From IMG/VR virus record IMGVR_UViG_3300024273_000474, positions 1 through 24,111 of that record: DNA of 24,111 nt, one strand, 5' to 3'. Source of the stretch: a virus. Positions within the stretch are counted from its first letter, which is position 1. Each line of letters starts with the position of its first letter. The notes under the pieces were generated by a model. That model saw only the letters and a list, made by a program, of their open reading frames with translations. It had not been told where the DNA came from and searched no databases. Position numbers and translations under genes: made by a program. Positions 5,352-23,284 of this stretch are shown here, piece after piece.

Positions 5352-5357
5352 ATAGTG

Positions 5358-7208: not shown

Positions 7209-7220
7209 AATGTATATATC

Positions 7221-8195: not shown

Positions 8196-8204
8196 TATAG
8201 TTAT

Positions 8205-8232: not shown

Positions 8233-8250
8233 CATTATAATTCAGTTAAA

Positions 8251-8270: not shown

Positions 8271-8293
8271 ATTATTTTATTTTTACTACTAGG

Positions 8294-8607: not shown

Positions 8608-8608
8608 A

Positions 8609-9190
8609 TTAGAATGTTATATCGTCCTGTGTAATATATATACTTTGCTTGGTTTTCACATGAAATCCCTTGAATATTTTTATGTCAAATACTTGACCGA
8701 CGGGTTCATGTTCTTCAACTATAACAGTTGTATTTTGTTTGGCAAGTAATTCACCATTCTTCAATGGTAAATCCTTGGTTAAAATGTATGTACCAGAACG
8801 AAGTCTATTAGAATCTTCTACGAGAAACCAATTGCCCGATTCGCATAATTGGTTATTTTCATCGATTTTTAGGTCTGTAAATTCATTAAGAATCTTTACC
8901 AATTTCTTATCTGAAATATTTGCTTTCTCTTTGATCAGCCAAAGAGCGGCGCCGTATCTGGCAATGGTGCTTCTACCGCCAGGAATCTTTGCCATCAATC
9001 TTCTGATATTGAAGACCAATCTATGGAATGTACCATATGCTTTTTTCTCATCCGATGTTTCGGGCGATTTAAGTTTGTCCCCGTCGGCATCAATGATTCC
9101 CTGTTTGAAAGCATCCGTCTTCTCATAAGGCATTGTGAGTAACCTTAGGAATCGAAGTGTGTAAATGAAATCTGCTCCTCTTAAAAACAT
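8609..9190 (-). CDS. Conserved marine T4-like phage protein (MFLRGADFIYTLRFLRLLT family)
   Basis: A 193-aa protein with the N-terminus MFLRGADFIYTLRFLRLLTM followed by P-Y-E-K-T-x-A-F-K-x-G-I-I-D. This opening is one I recall as strongly conserved in T4-like marine phages, so the start codon is well supported. Next comes F-H-R-L-V-F-N-I-R-R-L-M-A-K-I-P-G-G-R-S-T-I-A-R-Y-x-A-A-L-x-L-I-K-E. The C-terminal half is rich in beta-strand patterns. The role is unknown to me; co-occurrence with virion-type genes suggests a structural or assembly function. It starts three bases after the 120-aa gene stop. Confidence 0.8.
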   Translation of the reverse strand: MFLRGADFIYTLRFLRLLTMPYEKTDAFKQGIIDADGDKLKSPETSDEKKAYGTFHRLVFNIRRLMAKIPGGRSTIARYGAALWLIKEKANISDKKLVKILNEFTDLKIDENNQLCESGNWFLVEDSNRLRSGTYILTKDLPLKNGELLAKQNTTVIVEEHEPVGQVFDIKIFKGFHVKTKQSIYITQDDITF

Positions 9191-9193
9191 ATA

Positions 9194-9556
9194 TTATAGT
9201 GATTGTAATTTTTTAGCGATATGTAAATCAATTTTAACAAGGTCTTTCTGACCCGGTTTCAGAAAATTTAGATATATTAAAAATGTCTTGATTGCGGGCC
9301 AGTGTTTTGTTTCTGTTCGATAAAAGAGCATTTGTGTCGCCGCTGGTCTTTCAAAAACGTTATAGATTGTTATAATATGGTTGAGGAGAAGTCTTTCGGC
9401 TATAATACCAGATTTATCATATTTTCTTAGCAGTCTATTAATATATTTAAATCTTTGCAAATCCTCCTTGAAGTCTTCTATACCCAGACAGGCTGAGTTA
9501 GAATAGTGGTTAGCGGCATATAACTCGAAGTTGTCATCATTTAATTCATTGAACAT
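9194..9556 (-). CDS. Conserved small marine T4-like phage protein
   Basis: A 120-aa, probably all-helical protein: MFNELNDDNFELYAANHYSN, then a segment with FKEDLQRFKYINRLLRKYD and ERLLLNHIITIYNVF. Its end reads W-P-A-I-K-T-F-L-I-Y-L-N-F-L. I recall relatives in marine T4-like phages next to the MFLRGADFIYTLRFLRLLT family, but no function. A TATAAATA octamer sits five bases upstream of the ATG, so this may be the first gene of a small late unit (9556 to 8311). Confidence 0.75.
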   Translation of the reverse strand: MFNELNDDNFELYAANHYSNSACLGIEDFKEDLQRFKYINRLLRKYDKSGIIAERLLLNHIITIYNVFERPAATQMLFYRTETKHWPAIKTFLIYLNFLKPGQKDLVKIDLHIAKKLQSL

Positions 9557-9561
9557 GAATT

Positions 9562-9569
9562 TATTTATA
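9562..9569 (-). promoter_or_regulatory. Possible T4-type late promoter, leaderless
   Basis: Minus-strand TATAAATA (9569-9562) lies in a 50-base gap, downstream of a hairpin (9583-9602) and five bases before the ATG at 9556. The intergenic position strengthens it. A transcript would start at about the initiation codon. Confidence 0.5.
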
Positions 9570-9582
9570 CTTAATCATTAAT

Positions 9583-9602
9583 CACTAAATCCGATTTTAG
9601 TG
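9583..9602. other. 7-bp hairpin between late genes
   Basis: CACTAAA (9583-9589), loop TCCGAT, TTTAGTG (9596-9602) is a perfect 7-bp inverted repeat just after the stop of the 117-aa gene (9607). No T run follows on the minus strand, so it is a weak terminator candidate or an mRNA-end structure separating that gene from the TATAAATA at 9562-9569. Confidence 0.4.
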
Positions 9603-9606
9603 AATA

Positions 9607-9960
9607 TTATCCGTCAAGCTCCTCTGCTTGTACTCCCAATACGAATAGATGGAAGTCGGCGGTATCCTTCTTATATGGATTCTTATCTTTACCCTTTGAT
9701 TTGTAACCAGCCTTATATGCTTTAGAAGCTTCTAGTTTCTTAGCTAGTTGCTTATTATCGAAAATTTTAGAAAGGATAGAATCAATATCACCTTCGGGAA
9801 CCTTGGTGTTGCCACCCTTGACAAATACATCGGGGTTAACACCTTCTTCGATATCATCTTCGAAGATTTCTACACTATGTATCTGCATGAAATCATATTC
9901 ACGTTTTGACGTAGTTTGTTCAAGGAGAATCTCTGTTATTGTGTCTCTTATATTTTTCAT
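9607..9960 (-). CDS. Small virion-type protein with RMF-like C-terminal motif
   Basis: A 117-aa protein of unknown function. The N-terminus MKNIRDTITEILLEQTTSKR contains L-L-E, and residues near 35-45 contain D-I-E-E-G-V-N-P-D; both fit the (L/I)-x-E consensus of the T4 prohead protease. The C-terminal part (ASKAYKAGYKSKGKDKNPYK, then F-H-L-F-V-L-G-V-Q-A-E-E) resembles ribosome modulation factor: a G-Y helix, basic loop, N/C-P-Y, then a second helix with L-G-x-x-A. This similarity is short and could be convergent. The ATG overlaps the TAA stop of the preceding basic-protein gene (TAATG), indicating coupled translation. Confidence 0.7.
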   Translation of the reverse strand: MKNIRDTITEILLEQTTSKREYDFMQIHSVEIFEDDIEEGVNPDVFVKGGNTKVPEGDIDSILSKIFDNKQLAKKLEASKAYKAGYKSKGKDKNPYKKDTADFHLFVLGVQAEELDG

Positions 9961-10310
9961 TATGGGTTTTTGTTTTTGATTCTATCTTTTTCTTGTTGCT
10001 TAATTTTAGGAAGAAGCTTCTTAGCTATCTTTGAAATTGCGGCTTTCTTTTTATCTAGCTTCTTATCAATTACTGCTTTCTGTGCAAAGGATAACTGATT
10101 ATATGGCGCTGTCTTTGCTAACTTTGATCTGAGTAAATTTTTTGCGGCTTTATCCGCTCTCGTTTTTAATTTCTCTGGGTTAGCCTTCTTATTCATCGCA
10201 ATCTTTCTCTTAATTGCAATCTTGGGTGCTAGTCTCTTCATCAAGACCGACCTCTTGCGCCTTTGTTGAACAGTAAGTGCTTCGTTATAAAAGTCCGCGA
10301 ATGATTTCAT
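9960..10310 (-). CDS. Very basic internal-protein-like protein with capsid-targeting-like N-terminus
   Basis: A 116-aa protein, extremely rich in Lys, Arg and Ala, with no enzymatic motif. It starts MKSFADFYNEALTVQQRRKR. The M-x-x-F-x-x-(F/Y)-x-x-E-A pattern parallels the T4 capsid-targeting peptide MKTYQEFIAEA, although P3 is Tyr rather than Leu/Ile. The remainder (KRLAPKIAIKRKIAMNKKAN and similar stretches) looks like a nucleic-acid-binding helical protein. I recall similar basic proteins in marine T4-like phages. A plausible role is a head internal protein packaged with DNA. The ATG overlaps the stop of the upstream 214-aa gene as ATGA, and the next gene starts on its own stop codon, so three genes are translationally chained. 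Confidence 0.75.
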   Translation of the reverse strand: MKSFADFYNEALTVQQRRKRSVLMKRLAPKIAIKRKIAMNKKANPEKLKTRADKAAKNLLRSKLAKTAPYNQLSFAQKAVIDKKLDKKKAAISKIAKKLLPKIKQQEKDRIKNKNP

Positions 10311-10951
10311 ATTTCTATTTCTAACATGGTTTGTTTATTAGGATATTTAAATAATTCTGTTGAAACTGAGTTTTGGGGTTCGACCACAATTAATTCCCCA
10401 TCTACATAAATTATATTCAGCATATGGTATGAACCGGGCCTGCCTCCTACAAAACCGAATTCTTCTTTATTGTGAACAACCATCTTGCCAACCGCTATAT
10501 TTGTCCCCCATTTATGATTATATAATTCAACAAAGGCTTTGAATGCATTGGAATAATTATCACAGTCAAAGATTTCAAAGATGAATATTATGTCATTATC
10601 AAATATGTACCATTCCCATGCTTTTATAATAGTCTTATACTGTTTCTTTGTGATGTCATTATATTTACTGTCTCTGAATCTAATACTGTATGATGTCAGA
10701 TTACTATTTGATATGATCTCAGCCGTAAGAGCGCCTCTTCTTACTATTGCACCCGGCTCAGGTATATCATCATTTCCTTTCTTGAAGATGCCCCATCCTT
10801 CTGTGGGTGGATTTAAATGTTTCGCCTCATTATCTGGGTTATATTGATATGAGGCAATAGTCATAGTCTTACCCAAATTCATTGAGAGGATAAAATAAAT
10901 CCCAAGGACTGAACCTATAACAAAAGGCAAAAATTTCATAATATTTTTCAT
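10307..10951 (-). CDS. Membrane-anchored papain-like cysteine-peptidase-like protein
   Basis: A 214-aa protein. Residues 5-25 (MKFLPFVIGSVLGIYFILSM) form a signal anchor. The C-terminal domain has F-D-C-D-N-Y-S (C130 at the start of a helix), YHMLNIIYVDGELIVVEPQN (H176 on a strand, followed by E-P-Q-N at 191-194). This C...H...(E/N) order, with D-C-D-x-Y and V-E-P-Q, resembles the papain-like or transglutaminase-like cysteine-enzyme fold seen in some phage and lectin-associated proteins. Activity is unproven: it may process cell-envelope peptides, or use the fold for binding. It follows the coiled-coil/TM gene by 15 bases, so a lysis or envelope-related pair is possible. Family not identified with certainty. 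Confidence 0.65.
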   Translation of the reverse strand: MKNIMKFLPFVIGSVLGIYFILSMNLGKTMTIASYQYNPDNEAKHLNPPTEGWGIFKKGNDDIPEPGAIVRRGALTAEIISNSNLTSYSIRFRDSKYNDITKKQYKTIIKAWEWYIFDNDIIFIFEIFDCDNYSNAFKAFVELYNHKWGTNIAVGKMVVHNKEEFGFVGGRPGSYHMLNIIYVDGELIVVEPQNSVSTELFKYPNKQTMLEIEI

Positions 10952-10966
10952 AATCGTGATTACATA

Positions 10967-11227
10967 TTAGCGGATGAGGAAGAATAGTGTGCCGATGCCG
11001 GCGGTGATAATTGTTGTTAAGATTGTCCAAAAAACTCTATTCACAAGCATTACGGTATTTGTATTATCATGTGTTTCTTGTTCAACTAGTCTTACTCTTT
11101 CCTCTATGGATTCAAGTTTTGAAAGAGTGGATTTGACAGTTATATCGATAGATGATAGCTTTTCCTCTGCTCTAGCGAGGGAAACCACTGCATCTCCAAT
11201 TCTCTGTAGGTCGGTTTTTTCGGCCAT
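10967..11227 (-). CDS. Coiled-coil protein with C-terminal TM, XhlA-like (holin-associated?)
   Basis: An 86-aa protein: a charged amphipathic N-terminal part (residues 1-60, including KSTLSKLESIEERVRLVEQE) with heptad-like spacing, then a C-terminal hydrophobic segment (VFWTILTTIITAGIGTLFFL, about 66-85). This topology, and the R-x-x-x-V-E-Q-x-x-H-x-N-T-x-x-x-x-x-V-N-R-x-F-W pattern, is like the XhlA haemolysin family, which acts with holins in phage lysis. It could equally be a membrane-tethered structural or superinfection-related protein. It lies 22 bases after the 613-aa polyprotein gene and upstream of the cysteine-peptidase-like gene. Confidence 0.7.
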   Translation of the reverse strand: MAEKTDLQRIGDAVVSLARAEEKLSSIDITVKSTLSKLESIEERVRLVEQETHDNTNTVMLVNRVFWTILTTIITAGIGTLFFLIR

Positions 11228-11249
11228 ATAATTTTTCGGTACGAGATAG

Positions 11250-13091
11250 TTATTTCTTTTTACAGAATTGTTTGTATGCTTTCTGAATTACGGAAGGCAT
11301 CATTGTTAGATCAATGTTGGCTTCTGCAATAAATTCATTGATATTTTCAGGCTTTTCTCCAAGAGAAACTTCTACCACTCTAGTAAGTCTCTGATGTGCC
11401 ATACTATTCTCTTTCATCTCTTCACCTTTTGGACGATCTTTGGTATTGGATGGATAATGAATTCTTACGGGATTATTACTTATAAAGATTAATTCGCCAT
11501 CGGCATCTAGACCAGCCATGGTATAGTTACCATCTTTCATTTTAAGATCATTCATAGGCCCAAGTTTGATAGCGCCTTGTCTTACATTAGAAATGAGGGG
11601 CTTGAGATTATGTTTCTTGATAAGTTTTTCTCTTTTATTATCATTATCCTTTGTTCTGATCCAAGCCTTTTCTAATTCCTTAAATGGAAGTGCAGCTTCT
11701 TCAAGCTCAATTGATTCAAGCAGCTTGCGATCCTTTAGTTCAGACCTTACAACATTATTTGGAGCTTCCATATTGGATGGAGCACGAACTCCAAGGAGGG
11801 CAGTAAGACCTTGTGTTAGATCAGCATCCTTAATCTTGCCAGATTCAATTGCTTTTACAATGTTCTTTGTAATAGTAGCGCGTTGATTCTTCTTTACTGC
11901 ATCGCTCATGATCACGATCTTTTCAACCCAAGATTTCAGAGATTCTTCACCCTTTTTAATAGAGTACATACCTCTATGTGTTTTAACCTTGATCGCTTCT
12001 TCAAGATCAGCTGCTTCCTTAACTGGTTTGATTCTAACGTATTTCTTTTGGATTGCGTTGCGTTTCCAATCCTTCTTATTAAAGTTTCTGAAGTTTTTAA
12101 CTTCATCATATTCATCATAAGTCAGTACATTTGTCTTTTCAAAGTCCATATCTCTTGACTCACCTAATACAGCATCTACACTACCACTTGGAACTGTGAT
12201 TGGATCGCCCTTCATTTGCTTAATCCCTTTCTTGATGGCTTGAGCAGAGTTGTGGGCTTTTACGTCAACTGTTTGACCCTTAAAGAGTTTACCAGCTTTC
12301 TTCGTGATAGTAACTGTCCACCATTTGATTGCTTCTTCAAGGTCTTTATCAGACTCCTTTACAAACTTGGTGATCTGACCTTTTAAGATCTTCTTAGCTG
12401 CATCTGCATGAGCCTTAGATATTTTCGATTCTAAATCAAGATCTTTCATCTTCTTAATCAATGCGTCGGCATCCTTTCCTCCTTTGAGTCTTAGCGCTTT
12501 AAGAACCGATTGGACTGTTGCACTTGCTTCTTCAAGATCAACAGATTCTTCTTCAAGCGCTCTAACACCAAACCTAGGGAAATACCTATCATTTCTCTTT
12601 TTCTTAATGTTAGCCTTATCCTTATCATTCGGATTCGCGAATATTTCCTTGGCTTTTTTAAGATCGCTTGCGGAAATTTTCGTATCTTGATCTTTCTTAG
12701 CAATTAAATCTCTGAACTTAACAGCAGCGGGCGTGGTCTTCAGTAACTCAATTGCGTGGCGAATATCACGATAAAAAACAGCTTCATCTAGATCAGTTGA
12801 TTCGACATAGGCATTCAACTCATATTTGCCAGAATCCATGCCATAGACTTGAAAGGCTAGTCTTTTCTTTGTGTCTTTACCTTTCTTGGTAACCTTAACG
12901 ACATATCGATTAGTCTTACCCTTACTTGGCTTCTTGGGGCCAGTTGAGACTTGATTGAACCAATCATCTTCATCAACTTCAAATCCTTTTTTCTTAGCAA
13001 GATCTAAGGCAGCTTGCGATGCGGCTGTAAATGTATTATGATATAGCTCGTAATTAGCTTCTTCAATGTTTGCGTTTTCTTGAGTTTTCAT
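11250..13091 (-). CDS. Candidate head polyprotein with repeated (L/I)-x-E-A cleavage sites
   Basis: A 613-aa protein from MKTQENANIEEANYEL (ATG 13091). A longer frame to 13220 is possible but would overlap the upstream gene by over 120 bases and adds a low-complexity Lys/Ser segment, so I reject it. The protein is a string of small, unrelated-looking, Lys-rich domains separated by near-identical linkers: NIEEA (8-12), DLDEA (100-104), DLEEA (185-189, 250-254, 362-366), ELEEA (462-466) and FIAEA (587-591). These match the T4 gp21 prohead-protease consensus (L/I)-x-E with Ala at P1'; the last reads NEFIAEA, sharing EFIAEA with T4 internal-protein targeting peptides as I recall them. The first domain (NYELYHNTFTAASQAALDLA onward) resembles one I recall from other phage structural proteins. 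I infer a head-packaged polyprotein or scaffold. Predicted fragments are 22-124 residues. Confidence 0.75.
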   Translation of the reverse strand: MKTQENANIEEANYELYHNTFTAASQAALDLAKKKGFEVDEDDWFNQVSTGPKKPSKGKTNRYVVKVTKKGKDTKKRLAFQVYGMDSGKYELNAYVESTDLDEAVFYRDIRHAIELLKTTPAAVKFRDLIAKKDQDTKISASDLKKAKEIFANPNDKDKANIKKKRNDRYFPRFGVRALEEESVDLEEASATVQSVLKALRLKGGKDADALIKKMKDLDLESKISKAHADAAKKILKGQITKFVKESDKDLEEAIKWWTVTITKKAGKLFKGQTVDVKAHNSAQAIKKGIKQMKGDPITVPSGSVDAVLGESRDMDFEKTNVLTYDEYDEVKNFRNFNKKDWKRNAIQKKYVRIKPVKEAADLEEAIKVKTHRGMYSIKKGEESLKSWVEKIVIMSDAVKKNQRATITKNIVKAIESGKIKDADLTQGLTALLGVRAPSNMEAPNNVVRSELKDRKLLESIELEEAALPFKELEKAWIRTKDNDNKREKLIKKHNLKPLISNVRQGAIKLGPMNDLKMKDGNYTMAGLDADGELIFISNNPVRIHYPSNTKDRPKGEEMKENSMAHQRLTRVVEVSLGEKPENINEFIAEANIDLTMMPSVIQKAYKQFCKKK

Positions 13092-13098
13092 TATTTTT

Positions 13099-13836
13099 TT
13101 AATCTTTATTAATCTTTTTAGCGATATCATCTTTGATCTTGACTGGATATTTCTTGCCTTCAAATTCGAATTCTTTCTTGCCAGCAAGTTTAGCGTCTGC
13201 CGCAGCTGCGGTGAATGCATTGCTTTCTTCTTTTCTTTTTAGAATTCGCTTTACAGCTTCGGCCACTGATAGTGTCTTCTTATCATTTTGTTTTTTATCT
13301 TCCTTAGTGAATCTTCTTTTCTTTTCTTGACTTAATGCCTTCATCACAGTTTTAGAAGTTGATCGGCCGACATTTTTAAAAATTTTAAGAAGCTCATCTA
13401 GCTCTTTATCTGATAGTCTCATATAATCAGATGTTGTGGCTTCAGATTCCATTTCTGGCTTCTCATGTGAATAACCCATTTTCTTCATTTTCATATGATC
13501 TTCTGGCTTTTCAGCCTTATATTCTTTGCCCGTCTTGGGATCATACATCATGTGGGGTTCAAAATCTTTTGATTCATCCATGTTCTTGGCAATCTTATCG
13601 GCCACATCTTTCTTCAACTTGACCTTATATGTCTTATCTCCGAATTTAAAGTCTTTCTTGCCTGCTTTAGCAGCCTGTGCGAGAGCCCCCATAAAGGCAG
13701 GGACATCTTCATCGATTATGTTTTTAGGTATAAATTTTTCTCTTTTCATTATAGTTTTTTGCCCTGGGCTATTCTCTTTGTATTTATAAGATATCTGTTT
13801 TGTACCTATCTCTAAATATTCGTTAAATTGTATCAT
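13099..13836 (-). CDS. Prohead-core-like protein with an internally duplicated domain
   Basis: A 245-aa, Lys-rich protein. Two copies of one module are visible: residues 46-85 (PAFMGALAQAAKAGKKDFKF with F-G-D-K-T-Y-K-V-K-L-K-K-D-V-A-D-K-I) and 207-245 (NAFTAAAADAKLAGKKEFEF with E-G-K-K-Y-P-V-K-I-K-D-D-I-A-K-K-I). Between them lies HMMYDPKTGKEYKAEKPEDH, then MKMKKMGYSHEKPE, a motif I recall from phage structural proteins. The start MIQFNEYLEIG overlaps the upstream stop as ATGA and has an F-x-x-Y-L-E element like capsid-targeting peptides. A second possible start, MKREKFIPKN at 13749, lies 32 bases after a TATAAATA octamer (13781-13788) and would keep both repeats. Probably a scaffold or internal head protein. 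Confidence 0.75.
   Translation of the reverse strand: MIQFNEYLEIGTKQISYKYKENSPGQKTIMKREKFIPKNIIDEDVPAFMGALAQAAKAGKKDFKFGDKTYKVKLKKDVADKIAKNMDESKDFEPHMMYDPKTGKEYKAEKPEDHMKMKKMGYSHEKPEMESEATTSDYMRLSDKELDELLKIFKNVGRSTSKTVMKALSQEKKRRFTKEDKKQNDKKTLSVAEAVKRILKRKEESNAFTAAAADAKLAGKKEFEFEGKKYPVKIKDDIAKKINKD
13781..13788 (-). promoter_or_regulatory. Possible T4-type late promoter inside the 245-aa gene
   Basis: Minus-strand TATAAATA (13788-13781) lies within the first 20 codons of the 245-aa gene and 32 bases before the in-frame ATG at 13749. It could drive a shorter product and the downstream polyprotein. Its location inside coding sequence makes chance occurrence a real alternative. Confidence 0.4.
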
Positions 13837-16190
13837 CCTCCAACCTTTGCTGCTAAATCTTTATCTGCGCCATCCCAAGTACCTTTACTCTTAGTTGCGA
13901 AAGAATTTACTCTTGCATAGCCCCATTGAGTCGCGGTTGTACCAGGGCGATGACCTGTTTTCCAAGCGGCGACACCACGGTCGAAAACTTGTTTAAGAAT
14001 ACCGTATGAGATGCCAGTTTTATCTGCTTTCTTCTGAAGACCTTTCTTTGTATCTTCATCAATCGGTATTGGTTCTAGCTTGGCTTTCTTTCTAAGAGCA
14101 TTTAATTTCTTAACAACACCCTTTTGATTCTTCGAACCTGGAACTTCTTTCATGGCTTTACGAAGAAGTTTAATCATTTCGGGGTCCATTGTACCTTCAG
14201 ATTTAGTATATTGACTTTTAATCCAATCTTGGGCAATCTTTGATCTCGGCTGCTGATCAGTAAAATTCTTCATCTTCTTATAAGCATCAGTTGTTGCCTT
14301 TTTCCAATTTGAGCCGATTGAATTATCCACGACGACAAATTCATTTCTGAAGAGTGCTTGGAATTTACCGATATTCTTTTGAACATCTTGCCACATAGAT
14401 GTGACCTCAGCTGACCCGAGGCTTCTTGATCTTTTTGCGTCGCGTTCAATTGCGGTGTCGAGGTCTGTATTAACAAAGATCATTGCTACATCGTAGCCGA
14501 TAGCTTTCAACTGTTCGGATTGGCCTTTGATCTTAGCAAAGTCTTTTCCAGTTCCATCAATGATGAGTCCGAGTCGGCCAGAGATATAAAGTCCCATCTG
14601 TTTAGCAGTGAGGGCTTTTGCGCCTCTTCTTATCTCTTGTCCTTTTGGAGAAAAGATAAATTCAGGTTCCAGTGTGCCTCCAGCTTTAACAATGGCCTTC
14701 TCAAATGCAGGATCAGAATTAACTAGTTTGAGACCAAGGGCACCCAATCCTGTTTGACCCACTGTGAATGATTTACCTGATCCAGGTCCACCCGCGAGGA
14801 ATACGGCTTTAAAGATTGCTGGATCATTTACACCCTCTTCTACATTATCCTCAGTATCTATGATAGGATTTTTATCTTCAACAAGTGTGTAGCCCAACTT
14901 AGGAACATTATTATATCTATCTAGCTCTTGACCGGATGGTGTTTGAATTGATACACCGCCTTTAATCTTTACAATTTTAAGCGAAGAAGCATTTGATCCA
15001 TATTCTTTTTTCAGATGCTTCTTGAGTTCTGACATAGAAAAGTATTCAGTCTTCTCACCAAACATATCTTTGAATTTCTTAGTATGTTGTGACGGTTTTG
15101 TTGTAGCAGATGCATCACCAGGTGCGGGCTTAGTTGATTTCTTCTTAAAGTGTGCGGCTCTTTTCTGTTTTGTAGATTTGGCCATCTCATCACCGTCTGC
15201 ATCTTTTGCAAAATACTTGGCGGGTTGAGAACCTTTTCGATCTTCAATTTCCTTATCTTGTTTTACCTCAATGATTTTATCAAGGAAATATTTCTTATCG
15301 TCAGAGCCGAGAATAAAATTTGTACATCTTTCTACAACAGAGTGCATCTCGCCGCTCATTGTGAGGAATTTGTCACCTACTAGGAAAACATCTTCTGCGA
15401 TATATCTTTCTCTAATATTAGTCTTCTTTAATTCGATGTGTTTGCGAAAACTTGTCATCTCTTTCAATCCCATTCTCTTTCGAAGAAGATTGAAAACCGC
15501 TAATTTGTCGCCATAAGATTTCGGCAAGCCGTTTGCGAATGATTTGAAATCACCTTCGATTGCTGCTGCTCTCATCTTAGAAGCAGACATACCTGAAACA
15601 TCATCTGCATCTGGGTCTCGTTCGCCCGCAGATACAATCGAGATTCCATCTGGAAAATCATAGAAACCGTGGCGGGCTTGGACGCCATTATACTTGGTTA
15701 GTAATTTCTTAAAATCTGAAATTCTATCAGCACCAACAACCATTGTTACTTGTGTATATCCTGCATCATAGAGATAAACCAGAGCATCAATTGCATTCTT
15801 GATCTTATTATCTAGAACAATGTTGCGCCCAAACTTAGGGAATATCTTCCGCATCAATTGAACCTTCTCTTTATATTTAAGGGGGTTCTTTTTCTCATCA
15901 TCTGATTGTGATGCAAAAATTCTATAATCATTACCGATAGCAAGCGAAGCAACCTTGATCAAGAGTTTTTCGTGGCCTGTTGTGGGTGGATTGAATCGTC
16001 CAAAGGTAAATACAGCAGCTTTTATTTTCTCTTCTCTGAATTGCTTAAATCCTTTTATGTTTATAGATTCTAAGGTGCGCTTTCTCTTCTGCGCTTGATA
16101 AGCAAGAATACCGTCGGGATCATAATCTGTCCCAGCCGCGTTGGTGTAATCAACCACCGTTAAGTCTTTAAAGCTATATTTATCTTTCAT
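13833..16190 (-). CDS. Nucleotidyltransferase / P-loop kinase fusion with phage virion modules
   Basis: A 785-aa mosaic protein. Residues 58-240 form a cytidylyltransferase/NMN-adenylyltransferase-type domain: FTFGRFNPPTTGH (61-73, with the T-x-G-H nucleotide site), VVGADR (151-156) and SGMSASKMR (199-207, the S-x-S-x-x-R signature). A linker region includes MTSFRKHIE, YIAED (263-267) and QPAKYFAKDADGDEMAKSTK. Residues 461-640 are a P-loop kinase/zeta-toxin-like domain with Walker A GGPGSGKS (467-474) and I-I-D-G-T-G (543-548). The C-terminus (715-781, including GVAAWKTGHRPGTTATQWGY) matches a phage domain I recall as DUF5824. GFKQFREE (47-54), YIAED and NVEEG (449-453) look like targeting or protease sites, so it may be cleaved into separate enzymes. 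Substrates are unknown; NAD-related nucleotides are one possibility for the first domain. Confidence 0.8.
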   Translation of the reverse strand: MKDKYSFKDLTVVDYTNAAGTDYDPDGILAYQAQKRKRTLESINIKGFKQFREEKIKAAVFTFGRFNPPTTGHEKLLIKVASLAIGNDYRIFASQSDDEKKNPLKYKEKVQLMRKIFPKFGRNIVLDNKIKNAIDALVYLYDAGYTQVTMVVGADRISDFKKLLTKYNGVQARHGFYDFPDGISIVSAGERDPDADDVSGMSASKMRAAAIEGDFKSFANGLPKSYGDKLAVFNLLRKRMGLKEMTSFRKHIELKKTNIRERYIAEDVFLVGDKFLTMSGEMHSVVERCTNFILGSDDKKYFLDKIIEVKQDKEIEDRKGSQPAKYFAKDADGDEMAKSTKQKRAAHFKKKSTKPAPGDASATTKPSQHTKKFKDMFGEKTEYFSMSELKKHLKKEYGSNASSLKIVKIKGGVSIQTPSGQELDRYNNVPKLGYTLVEDKNPIIDTEDNVEEGVNDPAIFKAVFLAGGPGSGKSFTVGQTGLGALGLKLVNSDPAFEKAIVKAGGTLEPEFIFSPKGQEIRRGAKALTAKQMGLYISGRLGLIIDGTGKDFAKIKGQSEQLKAIGYDVAMIFVNTDLDTAIERDAKRSRSLGSAEVTSMWQDVQKNIGKFQALFRNEFVVVDNSIGSNWKKATTDAYKKMKNFTDQQPRSKIAQDWIKSQYTKSEGTMDPEMIKLLRKAMKEVPGSKNQKGVVKKLNALRKKAKLEPIPIDEDTKKGLQKKADKTGISYGILKQVFDRGVAAWKTGHRPGTTATQWGYARVNSFATKSKGTWDGADKDLAAKVGG

Positions 16191-16191: not shown

Positions 16192-17427
16192 TTATCTTTC
16201 CCATCCTTTAATCACATCTTTACTAAAATTGTTGGTAGAGAATTCAAGTCTATCCACAAGTTTTACTGCACCATTGCTTGTCTTATCAATAGCAACAAAC
16301 CCTTCTGAACCTGTAACCTTGAATCCATTCTTAGTGCGCACAAATGTTTTCATCTGTTTCACCTTATCTAGTTTATTTATAATAATCAGCTTGGCATCTA
16401 CGATGGCGTTTTGGAGTTCAAATACAAGTTCAAGATTCTTTCTATTTTTCGATGAGAAGAAACTCATGAGTTCTTGCTCCTTCTTATCGACTCCTTCTTT
16501 ACCCTTTGGTGATTTTCTTTGTAATCTTTCTTTTTCGAATTTGGCCTTGAACCAAGCGATCAGATCATTGACATGTTTTGTAGGAGATGCTATTCTTTCT
16601 CCTTTACGAACTAGTGTATTATTAAATGTTTCGAATTGTTGTGCAAGAGATTGATTATTTTCAATCTGGCGAAGAGTCGATCCTGCAATCTTCTGAAATA
16701 TCTTTCCAGCATCTGTTAGAGCCGTATTAACCTCTAAGGTATCTGCCGCGGTGAAAGTAGCCTTGCCACTCACATCATTATATTCAGCATCTTGAAACCA
16801 AACAGAGTCGGTCTTATTCAACTTAGTCATATCAACCTTGAATTTGGCAGTCATGTTTTCGAATGAATCGCCTTCGTATGTTGTATGGAAGACCACACCA
16901 ATCTTTGCTTTTGCTATCTGCTTACCGAGATTAGAATCCACAGGAACGGAATAAACAATGGTGTTGGGTTGGAATGTGTAATAAGATTGCCCTTCAATGG
17001 ATTCGTTAGAGACATCTCCAGAGGTAAACATTATGTCACCTTGAATAACACCCTTGATTCCCAATTTCTTTAATTCATTGTATGCGATTATCAATTTGTC
17101 CGCAAGATCACCTGATGTATCAGCCTTGACGTCTGCTTCAGATTTATATACCTTAGGATCTTTATTGAAAATACCTTTCTTAGCAACAAAGAATTTTCCA
17201 TCAGAAGGGTCAATCCCAGCAAAGACGGCTGGTGCACCATCCCATTTAACTGTTACATCATGAGAATTGCTGGCATTACCTGCAAGCATATCTCTTAAAG
17301 ATCGGAGAGCAAAGATGGCTTCTCTAGCCCCTTTAACACCACCATAGATCACACGATCTTCGATGTGTGTCATATGGGTATTCTTGCCCGACTTATTTTC
17401 TAATATATACTGTTTAAATGTTTTCAT
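16192..17427 (-). CDS. Ligase-superfamily nucleotidyltransferase with capsid-targeting-like N-terminus (DUF6267-like)
   Basis: A 411-aa protein. The N-terminus MKTFKQYILENKSGK closely parallels the T4 capsid-targeting peptide MKTYQEFIAEA, with I-L-E as a predicted prohead-protease site. Downstream are motifs of the covalent nucleotidyltransferase (ATP-dependent ligase/capping enzyme) superfamily: motif I K61-W-D-G (VTVKWDGAPAVFAGI), a motif III-like strand VIQGDIMF (127-134), motif IV EGFV (375-378) and motif V KLVD (389-392). A large helical insertion separates III and IV. T-H-I-E-D at 20-24 and D-P-S-D-G-K-F-F-V-A-K-K-G-I-F match a family I recall as DUF6267 in marine phages. Lys61 would be the adenylated residue. 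Whether it joins DNA, RNA or something else is unknown. The ATG overlaps the cupin gene stop (TAATG). Confidence 0.8.
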   Translation of the reverse strand: MKTFKQYILENKSGKNTHMTHIEDRVIYGGVKGAREAIFALRSLRDMLAGNASNSHDVTVKWDGAPAVFAGIDPSDGKFFVAKKGIFNKDPKVYKSEADVKADTSGDLADKLIIAYNELKKLGIKGVIQGDIMFTSGDVSNESIEGQSYYTFQPNTIVYSVPVDSNLGKQIAKAKIGVVFHTTYEGDSFENMTAKFKVDMTKLNKTDSVWFQDAEYNDVSGKATFTAADTLEVNTALTDAGKIFQKIAGSTLRQIENNQSLAQQFETFNNTLVRKGERIASPTKHVNDLIAWFKAKFEKERLQRKSPKGKEGVDKKEQELMSFFSSKNRKNLELVFELQNAIVDAKLIIINKLDKVKQMKTFVRTKNGFKVTGSEGFVAIDKTSNGAVKLVDRLEFSTNNFSKDVIKGWER

Positions 17428-17747
17428 TAAAGTTTTTTCTCAGATTTTGCTTCGGTAAATTCTCTAAATGATTGCATGTATTTTTCTTCGATAGAAATTT
17501 TAAGTGGTGTTGTACCTGATTTATATAGTCTGTGATAATCCATCTTTTTCACCTCGAGAATATCTCCAGCACACATCTCCTTTGGGATTTCATTATCCAT
17601 TTGGAACATCCAACCTTTACCTTCTAAGACAGTAATGGTTCTATTTTCTCTATCACGGTGCCAAACCAATTCATCCGATTCAATGTTAGATTCAAATGTA
17701 CGAATCTTTAGTTTGCCTTCTGTTTTATCTGTGTATGGTTTACTCAT
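17427..17747 (-). CDS. Cupin-fold protein with C-terminal SFREFTEA tail
   Basis: A 106-aa protein when started at MSKPYTDKTEGK (ATG 17747, one base after the upstream stop); a GTG start eight codons earlier is also open. Residues about 28-85 have a cupin-like strand pattern: L-V-W-H-R-D-R-E-N-R-T-I-T-V-L-E-G-K-G-W, then P-K-E-M-C-A-G-D-I-L-E-V, D-Y-H-R-L-Y-K-S-G and L-K-I-S-I-E-E. The G-D and H-R positions suit the second cupin motif. Metal binding is plausible through the two His residues, but the full H-x-H set is absent. The C-terminus MQSFREFTEAKSEKKL resembles the capsid-targeting peptide, here at the wrong end of the protein. Function unknown. Confidence 0.7.
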   Translation of the reverse strand: MSKPYTDKTEGKLKIRTFESNIESDELVWHRDRENRTITVLEGKGWMFQMDNEIPKEMCAGDILEVKKMDYHRLYKSGTTPLKISIEEKYMQSFREFTEAKSEKKL

Positions 17748-17748
17748 A

Positions 17749-18270
17749 TTACCAAAAAAAGTTGCCTCCACCTTTTAAGCCAAGTTCTGATGCATATCGT
17801 GGAAGATTGCAACTCCAGTAACCTGCTTTTGTTTTATCTTTTTTAGCTGCGCAGTTGTGGCGAGCCGCGAATGATTTTCGAGCTTCGGGATCATCGATCT
17901 TAGCCTTAAGACCAGATGTATCACCAAACTGCACCTTGATTACATTACCCTTATCATTTTTTACATAGACATAAAATTTCTTTTTGCCTCCTCTTTTGGG
18001 CTTATTCAAATCAACTTCATCACCTTTATATTCTGCTTCAATCAATGGATGATCAAGTGGAACTTCTTCACCTTCATACATTGCAAGTTTACCTATGTCA
18101 GTCGATAAGAGATATTCATCAAACTCACTCAAGGGTTTATACATCTCTTGTAGTTGTCTAGCATGTTCAAATAACTTATAATAATTATCTGAATGTGGAC
18201 GAAAAATATTCTCCGACAGAGGAATCTGATTCTCTCTGTGAAATCTAAATGCTGCTTCTAATTGACTCAT
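17749..18270 (-). CDS. Conserved phage protein with RHNC...YWSC motif
   Basis: A 173-aa protein. The N-terminal half (MSQLEAAFRFHRENQIPLSE, then N-I-F-R-P-H-S and F-D-E-Y-L-L-S-T-D-I-G) and the C-terminal half (KKFYVYVKNDKGNVIKVQFG, SFAARHNCAAKKDKTKAGYW, then S-C-N-L-P-R-Y-A) are both ones I recall from myoviruses, where they occur fused or alone among structural genes (DUF6321-like C-terminus). Two cysteines (R-H-N-C and Y-W-S-C) could bind metal. The sequence P-L-I-E-A-E-Y is another (L/I)-x-E-type site. I know of no function. Its ATG overlaps the TAA of the preceding 602-aa gene (TAATG), so the two are translationally coupled. Confidence 0.75.
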   Translation of the reverse strand: MSQLEAAFRFHRENQIPLSENIFRPHSDNYYKLFEHARQLQEMYKPLSEFDEYLLSTDIGKLAMYEGEEVPLDHPLIEAEYKGDEVDLNKPKRGGKKKFYVYVKNDKGNVIKVQFGDTSGLKAKIDDPEARKSFAARHNCAAKKDKTKAGYWSCNLPRYASELGLKGGGNFFW

Positions 18271-20078
18271 TATTTTAAGAATTTGATAAATTTATCGTAA
18301 GGTATCTTTTTAGTTCCTTCAAAGTTAAATGAAAATCTACCTGATGCATTTGTACCTGTTCGGAATGCCGTGTAATAAATTTGATTATCTTCAATATCAC
18401 TAACAACATATAAATCAATATTTAGATATTTTTTATCTTGTGTATTGAGTCGGATGCCTGAGATAGGGAATTGAACATCTTTTAATTTAGCCTTTTTCTT
18501 TTCAACATAGTCTGAGGCTGATCCAAGATATTCATATGATTTGCCGCTCGATTTGCCATACACTTTATACATCGGAAGAGATGTTTTACCGAAGTAAACT
18601 TCTTTATGCATATCAATCACGGAACTTAATATCTCATCACTATTTGTTGTGCCGATGATTGATTCGACCGAGGACAATGAATAGGAGTTTGATAATAGTT
18701 TAGCGACAATATCAATGTTGATTTCTTTAGATGTTCTAAAGTTTGTTATCTCTGTACCAGTCTTATAGATAAGATAGTCTTTTGTATTATATAGTTGTAC
18801 AATAGTATTTCTTTTATTTTGAACTTCAGTGACTAGTTTATTTGCATTAGAAATACTGATCTTCTCAAGTTTACTATTAAGATTTCCCGCAGCTTTCTTT
18901 TCAATGAGAAATTTATCACCTTCGATGTATTGCTCCATCATCAGCATGTCTGCTTTATCTAAGCCAAATAATTTCTGGTATTTGGCGAATACAATGTTCT
19001 TTTCTGATTTGGCTGCTTTCTTAAATCTACTAGTTATCTTTAACGCAAAATTTTGTATCGATTTTGCTACTTTTAAATATAACCCTTTTATCTTTTCGGC
19101 GGCTGTCTTAAAAATATCGAACACTCCTTCATTCATCTGAAAAGATTCACTAACGATATCTGTGAAATAATCATCGTATGACGGCAACCCATATTTCTGA
19201 ATGATATATGCTGTTACCTTACCTAACTGGGCCTTGTCTGCGGATTTCTTTAATGAAACTTGAATCAGATTGATCTTACTATTTTTTCCAGTAATAACAC
19301 CATTTTTATCAAATGTGAATGTATCTGTTTTCATCGCCTCAATTGTTTTACCCGCATCGGCAGATGAGATGATCATATCTGCTGTATTAGCCTTAACACC
19401 CGTTATCGCAACATTGTCATTCTGTTCTTCTGCCGCATAATAATCATTGATTCTACCGTGAATAATGTTTGCCTTGAATTTCACAAGAGGCATGAAGTCT
19501 GCCATTCCTGCTATAAGACCAATCATCTCAGCAAAATTCTTTGCTGTCATTGTGTCAAACTTAGAGATAAGATTTGATTTGCCCTTTGAATCCCAGTCTT
19601 GTCCATTACCCAAGATACTTTTTATATTGGCAATAACCTTTGGGCGGTCGGCTGCATCTGCTTCTACATCTTTATAATATACACCAAGTGCTTGAACGGT
19701 TTCAAGTGTGGGAGTATCTTTACCCCAATTAATATCTGAGCCCAATTTTAAACCATTGAAATAGTTATCAACTGCTTTTTCATGCCAAGCAAATGAGCCT
19801 ACTGATTTTCCATCTGGTGCATCGAGAATCTCAAATGCAGCACGGAGTTGTTGAGTATTATCTCCAAAAATTAGAGCATCACTTGGTATATTAGCGGGGT
19901 CTAATTTACTAAAGACGGGGCTCGGGGGTAATTTTAATTTATCTCCTACCTTATTTTCAAAGGCAGAGATTTTATCGGTCTTTAAAGTAAAAAGTGAGCC
20001 TGGTCCATATTTGCCAGCACTCACAGTTGCTTCGACAATTATGTCTGAAATTTCTTTGTAATCTTTAAATGATAGCAT
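18270..20078 (-). CDS. Large virion-type protein with targeting-like N-terminus and possible nuclease core
   Basis: A 602-aa protein of unknown function when started at MLSFKDYKEISDIIVEATVS (ATG 20078); an ATG nine bases upstream (20087) is the alternative. I prefer 20078 because M-x-x-F-x-x-Y then aligns with the targeting peptides of neighbours. I-V-E-A gives a protease-type site. Around residues 229-290 the pattern T-A-D-M-I-I ... N-L-I-Q-V-S-L-K-K-S-A-D-K-A-Q-L-G-K resembles divergent PD-(D/E)XK nuclease cores (Asp234; Lys277), but this is tentative. A second M-N-E-G-V-F-D-I-F-K element at about 315 precedes an amphipathic, Lys-rich region, so it may be another fusion. It is the first gene after the late promoter at 20112-20119. 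Confidence 0.75.
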   Translation of the reverse strand: MLSFKDYKEISDIIVEATVSAGKYGPGSLFTLKTDKISAFENKVGDKLKLPPSPVFSKLDPANIPSDALIFGDNTQQLRAAFEILDAPDGKSVGSFAWHEKAVDNYFNGLKLGSDINWGKDTPTLETVQALGVYYKDVEADAADRPKVIANIKSILGNGQDWDSKGKSNLISKFDTMTAKNFAEMIGLIAGMADFMPLVKFKANIIHGRINDYYAAEEQNDNVAITGVKANTADMIISSADAGKTIEAMKTDTFTFDKNGVITGKNSKINLIQVSLKKSADKAQLGKVTAYIIQKYGLPSYDDYFTDIVSESFQMNEGVFDIFKTAAEKIKGLYLKVAKSIQNFALKITSRFKKAAKSEKNIVFAKYQKLFGLDKADMLMMEQYIEGDKFLIEKKAAGNLNSKLEKISISNANKLVTEVQNKRNTIVQLYNTKDYLIYKTGTEITNFRTSKEINIDIVAKLLSNSYSLSSVESIIGTTNSDEILSSVIDMHKEVYFGKTSLPMYKVYGKSSGKSYEYLGSASDYVEKKKAKLKDVQFPISGIRLNTQDKKYLNIDLYVVSDIEDNQIYYTAFRTGTNASGRFSFNFEGTKKIPYDKFIKFLK

Positions 20079-20110
20079 AGTTCCCATAAAATTAAATGAA
20101 GGTGTTTCAT

Positions 20111-20585: not shown

Positions 20586-21944
20586 CTATATCTTGAATGA
20601 TGAATAATCTGATCCTGTCTGTTGAGATTGAGTCTCATTAGAGAGTGTCTGTGCAGAATCTTCAACATCATATAATCTCATCTTTGCCCGATCAATCCCC
20701 ACGATAAATCTCTTATTCTGAGTTGGATCATTATATCTGTTCTTGAGTTGTTTAACCATCAATTGATTCATACCCTCAAGTTGCTCGGTTGAAATCAGAG
20801 CCACCATTAAATCGGCGGTGGCAGGAAGTCCGAATGATTCAGATGTGTCTGTAATCTCAACATCTGTATTTCCAAACCCTGTTCGAGTCACCTGTGTTGC
20901 CGACCAGATTGGAACATTGAATTCTACGGCAAGACCACGGAGTTCCTCAGCGATTGCTTTGATATAAGAATACGAATTGATCGAACCACCAAGTCCTTTC
21001 ATACGAGCAGAAGCAGCAATGTTAAGATAATCGATATAGATGACATCGGGCTTGAAGTCTTTCTTTAGTTTCAATTCATCTAGGAGTGCACGGAAATGAC
21101 CTGTGTGTGCAGCGGCGGTAGGATATTCCTTGATGATCAATTTGCCATTGGTCTTTGCCTGAATCTTTTGTACCTTGTTATCAAAGGTTTTCTTAGGCAT
21201 ATTCTCAATGTCTTTGATGTCAATATCGAAAAGGTTCGCATCAATTCTCTCAGCAATCTTTTCCTCTGCCATCTCAAGAGTGATGTAGAGCACATTCTGA
21301 CCTTGAGAAAGTGCAGCTGAGGCAAAATGACACATGGCCAATGATTTACCAACCCCTGTTCCTGCTAAGATGATGTTCAATGTTTTTCTACTAACACCAC
21401 CCTTTGTGATCTCATTGAATTTCTCAAGATCAAAGGCAAACTTTTCTTCTTTCATATGATAGAAGTCAAATCTTTCTTGTGCATTCTCGATGTAATCGTG
21501 ACCAACATTCGAATCGAATGAAACACCGAGGGCATTGGAGAGAATCTCAGGTATGGCACCCTCGGTTCTCTCCTGCGATTTACCATCAATGATCTGAATT
21601 GATTCCATTATAGCGAGATATACGGCGCGATCCTTGCACCATTTCTCTGTGGAATCAGTCAACCATTCTTCATCAACCTCATCTTTTTCATCGAGGCTCT
21701 TAATGAGGGTAACAACATCATTCGCATCCCTTCTTGTTATATCTTCTGACTGTTGAAATTCAATCTCTAGTGCAGAAGAATTTGGTAACTTATTGTAAGA
21801 ACCAATGAATGATAATATTAGTTTATATACAGGAACATATTCATCTTCAAAGTATGTAACCTTGATATGTGGCAATGCTTTGCGCGTGAATTGTTCATTG
21901 TGTAATAAATTACTAAGTATTATCTTCTGTAGGTTCTTCGCCAT
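20586..21944 (-). CDS. 41: DnaB-type replicative helicase (T4 gp41)
   Basis: A 452-aa hexameric 5'-3' DNA helicase, the counterpart of T4 gp41, which unwinds the replication fork with primase. The N-terminal domain (1-150) is helical, with Q-F-T-R-K-A-L-P-H-I near the start. The RecA-like motor has Walker A GTGVGKS (195-201; LAGTGVGKSLAMCHFA), the T-L-E-M-A-E segment (H1a, 222-227), Walker B VIYIDYL (301-307) and WSATQVTRTGF. The C-terminus (QLKNRYNDP, R-F-I-V-G-I-D-R-A-K-M-R-L) carries the usual arginine-containing strand. It overlaps the small gene upstream by 32 bases, matching the T4 order uvsX-40-41. Strong identification. Confidence 0.95.
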   Translation of the reverse strand: MAKNLQKIILSNLLHNEQFTRKALPHIKVTYFEDEYVPVYKLILSFIGSYNKLPNSSALEIEFQQSEDITRRDANDVVTLIKSLDEKDEVDEEWLTDSTEKWCKDRAVYLAIMESIQIIDGKSQERTEGAIPEILSNALGVSFDSNVGHDYIENAQERFDFYHMKEEKFAFDLEKFNEITKGGVSRKTLNIILAGTGVGKSLAMCHFASAALSQGQNVLYITLEMAEEKIAERIDANLFDIDIKDIENMPKKTFDNKVQKIQAKTNGKLIIKEYPTAAAHTGHFRALLDELKLKKDFKPDVIYIDYLNIAASARMKGLGGSINSYSYIKAIAEELRGLAVEFNVPIWSATQVTRTGFGNTDVEITDTSESFGLPATADLMVALISTEQLEGMNQLMVKQLKNRYNDPTQNKRFIVGIDRAKMRLYDVEDSAQTLSNETQSQQTGSDYSSFKI

Positions 21945-22227
21945 ATTCTTCTTCGTCTTCTTTATCTAAAACTGATGCCAATATATCTCCCATCAAATTA
22001 TTGAAATTGATAGAATCTTCCAATTCCTTTATACTATACTTTTCATTCCCGTTGTCAATCTGATAATTGAAGTTTAATGTAGCATTATCTGCTTCAGTAT
22101 CTTCTTCAATTTTCACTTCACCATAGTAATAGACAACACCTTCGTATTCGCCTTCGGTGATTTGAAAGCCATAGAAATCAAGGTCTTGCTTTTCAACAAG
22201 TTTGTATGTGGGTAAATTATCCGACAT
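21913..22227 (-). CDS. Small acidic protein in gp40 position between uvsX and gp41
   Basis: A 104-aa acidic protein: MSDNLPTYKLVEKQDLDFYG, then F-Q-I-T-E-G-E-Y-E-G-V-V-Y-Y-Y-G-E-V-K-I, ending with a run of Glu/Asp. In T4 the gene between uvsX and 41 is gene 40, a small protein implicated in head-vertex assembly. Size and position match, and I recall similar small proteins in marine T4-like phages labelled as head vertex assembly chaperone. I cannot confirm homology from sequence by eye. The frame overlaps the end of uvsX by 11 bases and the start of the helicase gene by 32 bases. A GAGGAAGA stretch inside the uvsX 3' end could serve as its ribosome-binding site. Confidence 0.75.
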   Translation of the reverse strand: MSDNLPTYKLVEKQDLDFYGFQITEGEYEGVVYYYGEVKIEEDTEADNATLNFNYQIDNGNEKYSIKELEDSINFNNLMGDILASVLDKEDEEEYGEEPTEDNT

Positions 22228-23284
22228 CTTCCTCTTCCTCCATATTCACCTCTTCATCTGGCGCAAGCATTTCAACTGTTCCAACCTTGAATTTCTTTTC
22301 GATATATTCCTTGAAATCTGTCGCATCAAAAATGACATCCCAAAAATCTTTCTTCAATGTATCTTTCATACGAACATTACCAGAGAGTTCATCACCAGTT
22401 GATGGGTTCTTTGCCATATACCAACCATTCTTTGGCTTAACGACATATCCACCATCAAGAGCGACCTCTGTAAGACCTGACCACTTTTCGATTCCACCTG
22501 TCCAAGTAACCGAGATAGGAATCTTTGACTTCTCTTTCACAAACCTTGATTTCTCAATGTTGATAACAAAGTTGTAGCCCATCACTTCTGTTCCAGTCTT
22601 TTCTTGGCGGCGCCCAATGATCCAAACATTATCAGCAGAATACATCACACCTGTTCCACCCGATACCACAGCCTTTGAAAACATCTCTTGAGTCTGATAG
22701 GTATGATTGACAGCCAATAGTGGAATATCATTCAGAGTAAGTTTAGGAGTAATCATTCGAAATAAACCCTTGAGAGCTTTTGCTCGAGTCATATCAGCGA
22801 CTGATTTCATATTCTCAGCATCATCAACTTCTTTCTTAGATGCAATGTTACCGATAGAATCAATGATTACGATTACCTTATCATCTCGAGTTATCTCATT
22901 CAATTGGTGAACTAGATCAAATTTAAGTTCTTCAATGTTTGTAACTGGGGTGTGTAGAACACGAGATGTGTCAATTCCAAAAGATTCAAAATATGCTTGG
23001 GGTGAACCAAATTCTGAATCATAGAACATGAGAACAGCATCATCATATTCTTTTAGATATGCGGCAGCCATAAGGAGGGCAAAGGATGTTTTGAAGTGCT
23101 TGGAAGGCCCCGCCAAAACTGTCAGACCTGATGCTAGGCCTCCATCGACCGAACCAGAAAGCGCCGTATTGATCATCGGCACTTGTGTTTTTGTCAGCTT
23201 CTTCACACCGAAGAGCTTGGATTCTGACAATACTGCGCATCCCGCTGTGCGAGAGGATTTTTTTAGTTTATCTAATAGTGACAT
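22217..23284 (-). CDS. uvsX: RecA-like recombinase UvsX
   Basis: A 355-aa T4 UvsX-type strand-exchange protein, acting in recombination-dependent replication and repair. Walker A is GPSKHFKT (59-66), the variant form found in T4-like phages, and Walker B is VIVIIDSIGNI (D142). F-Y-D-S-E-F-G (87-93) matches the Y-D-x-E region and L-A-V-N-H-T-Y-Q-T-Q-E the loop L2/Gln sensor. It ends in an acidic tail (EEVNMEEEEDVG) typical of UvsX. A sigma-70-type promoter (23292-23319) precedes it; only seven bases lie between the -10 box and the ATG, so the message is probably leaderless. First gene of the uvsX-40-41 unit. Confidence 0.95.
   Translation of the reverse strand: MSLLDKLKKSSRTAGCAVLSESKLFGVKKLTKTQVPMINTALSGSVDGGLASGLTVLAGPSKHFKTSFALLMAAAYLKEYDDAVLMFYDSEFGSPQAYFESFGIDTSRVLHTPVTNIEELKFDLVHQLNEITRDDKVIVIIDSIGNIASKKEVDDAENMKSVADMTRAKALKGLFRMITPKLTLNDIPLLAVNHTYQTQEMFSKAVVSGGTGVMYSADNVWIIGRRQEKTGTEVMGYNFVINIEKSRFVKEKSKIPISVTWTGGIEKWSGLTEVALDGGYVVKPKNGWYMAKNPSTGDELSGNVRMKDTLKKDFWDVIFDATDFKEYIEKKFKVGTVEMLAPDEEVNMEEEEDVG

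Follow-up and report, generated by a model that had tools for sequence, protein, structure and literature searches.

T4-like cyanophages and their relatives rank with the most numerous viruses of the ocean. In known ligases motif III reads DGE, with a glutamate as the acidic residue, and nick-sealing DNA ligases need an OB domain and motif VI. T4 cleavage sites carry Ala, Gly or Ser after the Glu. A 2010 review reports that homologues of T4 DNA ligase were not found in cyanomyoviruses; it allows that distant homologues may exist and holds absence, with the host ligase standing in, to be more probable (PMC2984593). For the T4 head, another paper states that the first ten residues of IPIII are enough for packaging, residues 4 and 7 contributing to targeting and residues 8 and 10 to processing (PMC9026906).

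The DNA analysed here, referred to as the window, is a 24,111-base stretch of a viral record. The open frame at 16192-17427 (minus strand, ATG start, 411 aa) is a real gene. Its product matches Pfam PF19782 (DUF6267) over residues 16-402, the full length minus the leader (352 bits, E 6.6e-105), and PHROG 455, whose function is likewise not assigned (331 bits); no NCBIfam model matches it. On the basis of AlphaFold2 modeling and VIA-align comparison, we predict that it is a covalent nucleotidyltransferase of the polynucleotide-ligase superfamily. A tblastn search with the protein at E 1e-5 finds 456 of 50,697 phage records, 353 of which cover 80% or more of the query at a single site. Synechococcus (357), Cyanophage (61), and Prochlorococcus (24) are the main names among them, and a few records belong to Methylophilales, Pelagibacter, Vibrio, Stenotrophomonas, and Pseudoalteromonas phages. 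Because the first two counts resemble those of the window UvsX (375 Synechococcus and 61 Cyanophage records by name), DUF6267 appears close to universal in T4-like cyanophages, by name counts rather than by pairing record with record. Cyanophage annotations place it in T4-like gene cluster 71 (T4-GC71) and label it 'hypothetical'. The literature searched, which holds few subscription journals, does not mention 'DUF6267', and searches on capsid targeting with cyanophages and on Kyanoviridae with RNA ligase or nucleotidyltransferase gave, among the papers listed, nothing on the reading proposed here. Within that literature the family assignment appears new, while the kind of enzyme and the kind of tag are both already known.

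Relatives were drawn from viral contigs (best 80 per scan), and 36 loci came from contigs of bacterial and archaeal genomes; the latter are probably phage contigs because they come mostly from metagenome bins. One isolate assembly, a 188-kb Nonlabens xiamenensis contig (L411), also has the gene and is probably a phage contig. A DUF6267 frame is present in all 415 loci collected, and 399 frames are complete with at least 250 aa. Alignment A2 has 83 rows, namely the window protein and 82 representatives at 80% identity; of the 95 representatives available, the 12 that came from annotated phage records were left out, as was the copy of the window itself.

The sequence-only reading had laid out K61-W-D-G, QGD, EGFV, and KLVD as nucleotidyltransferase motifs, and all four are present and near-invariant in A2. 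Motif I, K61-W-D-G-A-P (17230..17247; minus strand, like the other features of this protein), contains the predicted nucleotide-accepting lysine and is kept in 82/83 rows, with K61 in 82/83 and D63 in 83/83. A motif Ia-like K83-K84 (17176..17181; compare AKRTG of T4 RnlB) has an invariant K84 (83/83). Next comes the motif III-like Q129-G-D131 (17035..17043), in which Q129 is kept in 82/83 rows and D131 in 83/83. Here the proposal holds for the presence and conservation of QGD, with an Asp at the place of the ligase Glu. Motif IV, E375-G-F-V (16294..16305), and motif V, K389-L-V-D-R393 (16249..16263), lie 14 residues apart, counted from E375 to K389, and are kept in 82/83 rows, the remaining row being incomplete; E375, G376, K389, and R393 each give this count. 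The exception row is a truncated frame of 256 aa (L413). Lys61 and the EGFV glutamate, whose loss in homologues had been named as telling against the assignment, are thus each retained in 82/83 rows. Among 401 complete DUF6267 frames, K-x-[DN]-G-x-[PS] occurs in 399 and EG[YF]V in 398. The search pattern for motif V missed 41 of the 401, chiefly short cyanophage forms, in which its Lys is nonetheless aligned (invariant K302 in alignment A3). The family has two further conserved stretches, an invariant H181-T-x-Y184 (H181 83/83) and N-x-H-x-x-H-x-E-D directly past the leader. The acidic residue of motif III, the EG of motif IV, and the Lys of motif V are therefore all present in the order of the superfamily, and the 14 residues from E375 to K389 equal the distance from E312 to K326 of the Naegleria gruberi RNA ligase (NgrRnl), as numbered in mutant entry titles.

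The AlphaFold2 model of the window protein, made with A2, has a pLDDT of 91.1 and a pTM of 0.87, the leader being its poorest part. For syn9 gp183, a 320-aa protein that represents the short form of the cyanophages and is about 27% identical to the window protein, the values are 88.2 and 0.83. VIA-align 2 was applied to Foldseek's best 1000 chains per model, and 999 PDB chains were aligned for each. For the window model all 50 matches listed are ligases, led by NgrRnl with a Z of 8.8 (rmsd 3.7, 183 aligned), and for syn9 gp183, 49 of the 50 listed are named ligases and the other is a chain of an NHEJ complex, the top match again being NgrRnl (Z 8.4, rmsd 3.7, 176 aligned). These two values are modest as evidence of fold. 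The window model further matches RNA editing ligase 1 (8.2), Trl1 (7.8), T4 Rnl2 (7.7), T4 Rnl1 (7.3), and human DNA ligase 1 (7.0). The program cautions that a Z below 8 may reflect no more than a common arrangement, and that models without a clear match typically reach a best Z of 7 to 8. In Foldseek searches of the PDB neither model has a match at E 0.001; carbonic anhydrases come first for the window model, and the top eight rows for syn9 gp183 are tRNA and DNA ligases at E 0.03-0.29, Trl1 being among the RNA/tRNA ligase matches.

Sequence profiles do not reach the ligases. PF09414, PF01068, and PF01653 do not match the window protein up to E 0.1, and a PDB sequence search with the protein or with the 83-row profile finds no ligase. 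In hhalign the RNA-ligase alignment gives 16.6 and the DNA-ligase alignment 21.4, against 27.2 for the best of 44 unrelated neighbour families. The motif pairings within these alignments (KWDG with ligase KFDG, and EGFVAI with EGYVLK of T4 RnlB) span only 21 and 11 columns and were given no weight. Because this profile comparison fails, predicted structure and motifs are what carries the assignment. We accept ligase kinship because many different ligases, and practically nothing else, fill both VIA-align lists while the carbonic anhydrases drop out, and because the conserved residues spell out the ligase motifs in order, with the NgrRnl-like spacing from IV to V. The earlier claim of a ligase-superfamily enzyme is thus borne out by two models and by conserved motifs, and a fold unrelated to nucleotidyltransferases, the outcome that would have told against it, was avoided; what it lacks is a significant profile link to RNA or DNA ligases. 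Superfamily membership with covalent chemistry is, on these predicted folds, highly probable. The 'long insertion between III and IV' of the sequence-only reading corresponds to residues 227-356 (16360..16749), between motifs III/IIIa and IV, which are mostly helix in the model by DSSP and carry 23 K+R against 17 D+E. An OB domain and motif VI are absent, the protein stopping 22 residues past K389 with one helix.

We propose that the lysine nucleotidyltransferase (polynucleotide ligase) superfamily has in DUF6267 a branch that had gone unrecognised. In the proposed mechanism, Lys61 would take AMP from a nucleotide cofactor, ATP being likelier than NAD+, and Lys84, Asp131, Glu375, Lys389, and Arg393 would serve to bind nucleotide and metal. 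The helical insert may replace the absent OB domain in holding the nucleic acid, and the enzyme would most likely seal nicks or breaks in DNA or RNA. Because there is no OB domain and the likeness is to RNA ligases, RNA joining and AMP transfer to other targets stay as alternatives, and we regard end-sealing as the main activity as an evenly balanced proposition.

The distribution of known ligases bears on this proposal. Among 13 named phages with DUF6267, PF01068 is found in two (DLP6 and S-CRM01) and PF09414 and PF01653 in none, leaving 11 without a recognisable ligase. The T4 gp30 profile phrog_114, which gives 576 bits with gp30 itself, is likewise strong in DLP6 and S-CRM01; its matches of 16-19 bits in three others (HTVC008M, P-HM2, and S-T4) are too weak to be taken as ligases. 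The idea that a phage has either DUF6267 or a DNA ligase but never both is rejected, as DLP6 and S-CRM01 have the two. Since 11 of the 13 phages have no recognisable ligase and the review allows for distant homologues, DUF6267 is a candidate for the missing ligase of T4-like cyanophages, in which it would be the best candidate for the absent ligase activity.

The gene lies in a run with genes for a DnaB/gp41-like replicative helicase (20586..21944, minus strand; phrog_19, E 1e-122) and a UvsX-like recombinase (22217..23284, minus strand; phrog_97, E 1.5e-83), both upstream. Its conserved partner, at 13833..16190 on the same strand, joins a HIGH-type cytidylyltransferase (GRFNPPTTGH, SASKMR), a P-loop kinase (GGPGSGKS), and DUF5824, and in the window the HIGH-type motif and the P-loop are both intact. 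Of the 330 loci with 1.5 kb or more of sequence downstream of DUF6267, 297 have a cytidylyltransferase within this distance, and 313 have one somewhere in the locus. PHROG 455 covers DUF6267 and the cytidylyltransferase together, and the S-PM2 protein named cytidyltransferase is a fusion with DUF6267 (591 aa, TM 0.90 to the window model); none of the 415 loci has such a fusion. The domain order of the partner is that of NadR, as described in PMC9503650. Its identification as NadR itself is rejected, TIGR01526 giving 20.5 bits against a cut-off of 341.

In a second view of the enzyme, DUF6267 has the ligase-superfamily fold and would self-adenylylate, but would pass AMP or another nucleotide to a protein, a small molecule, or an RNA 5' end instead of sealing strands, as a delivered host-modifier. 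T4 Alt, a delivered ADP-ribosyltransferase, would be a precedent. The missing OB domain and motif VI fit this view, as does a nearly fixed partner that is a HIGH-type nucleotidyltransferase of nucleotide metabolism, sometimes with a P-loop kinase and in S-PM2 even fused to DUF6267. The leader-tagged virion enzymes of S-CREM2 described below also include a SAM hydrolase and a kinase. However, the nearest folds are RNA ligases that seal strands, the gene is close to UvsX and gp41, and the untagged cyanophage forms would act only within the infected cell. On balance we consider AMP transfer unlikely, though the strongest of the alternatives.

A further alternative is that DUF6267 is an RNA ligase that mends tRNAs cut by host anticodon nucleases together with the adjacent kinase, in the manner of T4 Rnl1 and Pnkp. 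The best structural matches are indeed RNA and tRNA ligases, including Trl1 with its kinase module, and the adjacent kinase weakly matches zeta toxin and polynucleotide kinase profiles. The window's kinase profile is found in only 94 of 330 loci, however, against 313 of 330 for the cytidylyltransferase, which makes a dedicated role in tRNA repair rather improbable.

Nucleic-acid sealing, the activity we favor, would in the window's branch be combined with a T4-type leader that would direct packaging into the head. The sequence-only reading had described a targeting-like peptide, and residues 1-10, MKTFKQYILE (17398..17427; pLDDT low, below 50 at residues 8-12), do resemble, by position and by chemistry, the capsid-targeting sequence of T4. 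The first eleven residues of the window protein are MKTFKQYILEN, T4 IPII and IPIII start MKTYQEFIAEA, and IPI starts MKTFKEFTST. Residues 4, 7, 8, and 10 agree with those important in T4 IPIII. The residue past Glu10 is Asn, which departs from the Ala, Gly or Ser at T4 cleavage sites. The annotation of the relative C48C1 includes a head maturation protease, and none was seen in the 24-kb window fragment.

A strict leader pattern occurs on DUF6267 in 160 of 414 loci and elsewhere at 377 same-strand and two opposite-strand frame starts. Because the loci are partly near-copies, distinct N-termini are the fairer count; among frames of at least 100 aa, the pattern is found in 85 of 185 distinct DUF6267 N-termini (shuffle mean 0.29, max 2), in 115 of 1,350 other same-strand ones (shuffle mean 1.4, max 6), and in none of 663 opposite-strand ones (shuffle mean 0.55, max 4). 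In 150 of the 156 kb of C48C1, whose DUF6267 is 57% identical, the coding strand has ten starts that fit the pattern, belonging to eight frames, and the opposite strand has none. Four adjacent proteins of this phage carry the leader, namely DUF6267, one of 123 aa, the cytidylyltransferase (read from a GTG start that precedes the annotated one), and one of 90 aa. A helicase annotated beside UvsY in the same phage (L416:19419-20918) has the leader-like N-terminus MKDYSHFMVEA on a DNA repair enzyme. Cyanophage DUF6267 proteins are without the leader (MAKNTHLEHLED, MSKNTHLEHLED), and the next gene often has it. Within the window's branch the leader is kept as a pattern, the entropy at its positions being partly fixed by the pattern used to pick the rows. 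On the DUF6267 tree, leader presence takes 13 changes against 31.7 with shuffled labels; because the tree comes from a quick search and some tips scored 'none' have near-matches, it was used only to call the leader clustered.

Within the window only DUF6267 fits the strict pattern. Near-matches stand at or near the N-termini of three further minus-strand frames, 9960-10310 (MKSFADFYNEA), 13099-13836 (MIQFNEYLE), and 18270-20087 (MLSFKDYKEISDIIVEA). A leader-like stretch, MQSFREFTEAKSEKKL, also forms the C-terminus of a cupin-like ORF upstream of DUF6267 (17427-17771, minus strand). Separately, a 656-aa protein (11250-13220, minus strand) has nine [IL]-x-E-[AGS] sites like those of the T4 prohead protease (shuffle mean 1.4; 0 of 500 shuffles as high), and may be a polyprotein-like head protein.

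Published virion lists show which leader-bearing proteins mass spectrometry has found in cyanophage particles. The S-SZBM1 list of 30 proteins includes protein 140 and excludes 141, a leaderless DUF6267 (PMC9146016). Protein 140, the cytidylyltransferase, starts MRFRQFIIEA. It is the only one listed of the three annotated strict-leader genes of this phage (140, 191, and 192), a count that leaves out three further strict matches. The S-CREM2 list has 52 proteins (PMC10665884). Four of its six strict-leader frames are listed, and for these four, whose annotation was compared, the proteins are a SAM hydrolase, an APH/ChoK-like kinase, the cytidylyltransferase gp154 (which starts MKNFSSFLTEA), and ORF136. 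The S-CREM2 DUF6267 gene (58905-59762) is without a leader, and its product is absent from the list. In the same phage (L497, record 3837-13331), a virion Cas9-like nuclease has a leader-like stretch near residue 17, and ORF13 is a near-match. S-SM1 virions contain the cytidylyltransferase T4-GC190 (PMC3037559), and in P-HM2 T4-GC190 is the gene after DUF6267. A kinase is reported from S-CRM01 virions, according to PMC10665884; we infer that it is the product of the S-CRM01 gene near DUF6267 that is annotated as a kinase and starts MISFDQFLSEK. The authors of PMC10665884 consider that virion cytidylyltransferases and kinases might be contaminants and leave the choice between cargo and contamination open. 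The targeting leader common to these enzymes speaks for real cargo. In the part of the literature examined DUF6267 has not been detected in virions, the two lists checked (S-SZBM1 and S-CREM2) concerning leaderless forms; the paper on DLP6, which is a leader-bearing phage, does not mention mass spectrometry. The earlier proposal that the window protein is packaged in the head thus draws its support from the match of its leader to the T4 sequence, and packaging in the window's branch is, judged from this leader, probable.

The leader might instead be no more than an amphipathic start of the common kind, or a peptide that docks to some other partner. The absence of the tagged S-SZBM1 proteins 191 and 192 from the virion list would agree with this, but at the positions examined by mutagenesis the pattern is identical to the T4 tag, and tagged enzymes of several functions are present in virions. 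We therefore find a function other than packaging quite unlikely. Weakest is the idea of a ligase relic that serves as a structural or DNA-binding protein with its pocket conserved for another reason, which would suit the lack of a sequence-profile link to ligases and the precedent of T4 IPI, a leader-bearing inhibitor protein rather than an enzyme (PMC3012670), yet is very improbable given that the predicted catalytic positions are near-invariant down to about 26% identity, unlike in relics.

Taken as a whole, the best explanation is a branch of the ligase superfamily, likely joining nucleic acids, with a T4-type capsid-targeting leader in the window's branch, and we consider this combination somewhat more probable than its negation. 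For the window protein itself, covalent chemistry, nucleic-acid sealing, packaging, and delivery are what we infer from the predicted fold, the motifs, and the leader. A broader and more tentative reading, which we hold possible but doubtful, is that marine T4-like phages have in DUF6267 a ligase that was overlooked and that, in a large marine branch, it is a tagged and delivered enzyme packed with the tagged nucleotidyltransferase and others, as an injected kit that would mend or modify nucleic-acid ends before phage gene expression. With these proposals, a near-universal 'hypothetical' gene of ocean phages becomes a candidate with simple and decisive assays. In addition, the leader would offer a sequence rule for which phage enzymes enter the head, and it bears on the question of cargo versus contamination raised for cyanophage virion cytidylyltransferases and kinases in PMC10665884.

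Among known systems, the RNA ligases NgrRnl, Rnl2, REL, and Trl1 are like DUF6267 in the predicted fold and the motif I Lys; the EG[YF]V form of motif IV is common with T4 RnlB, and the Lys 14 residues past the motif IV Glu with NgrRnl. DUF6267 differs from them in its helical insert of ~130 residues between motifs III and IV, in the Asp of motif III, in lacking an OB domain, and in a profile similarity below detection. The ATP-dependent DNA ligase of the T4 gp30 type is alike in superfamily fold and in its replication and recombination neighbourhood, and DUF6267 occurs where gp30 is mostly absent. In contrast to gp30, DUF6267 has no C-terminal OB domain or motif VI and no PF01068 match. The cytidylyltransferase/NMNAT-like protein of cyanophage virions (T4-GC190) is encoded by the adjacent gene and has a similar leader in S-SZBM1 and S-CREM2, whereas DUF6267 (T4-GC71) belongs to a different fold family and is without a virion report in the portion of the literature examined. 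Compared with T4 IPI-III, the body of DUF6267 is a conserved enzyme-like protein rather than a small internal protein, and its delivery is putative. Its leader in the window protein is nevertheless alike to that of IPII and IPIII, with the same ten residues in length, aromatics at positions 4 and 7, Ile at 8, and Glu at 10.
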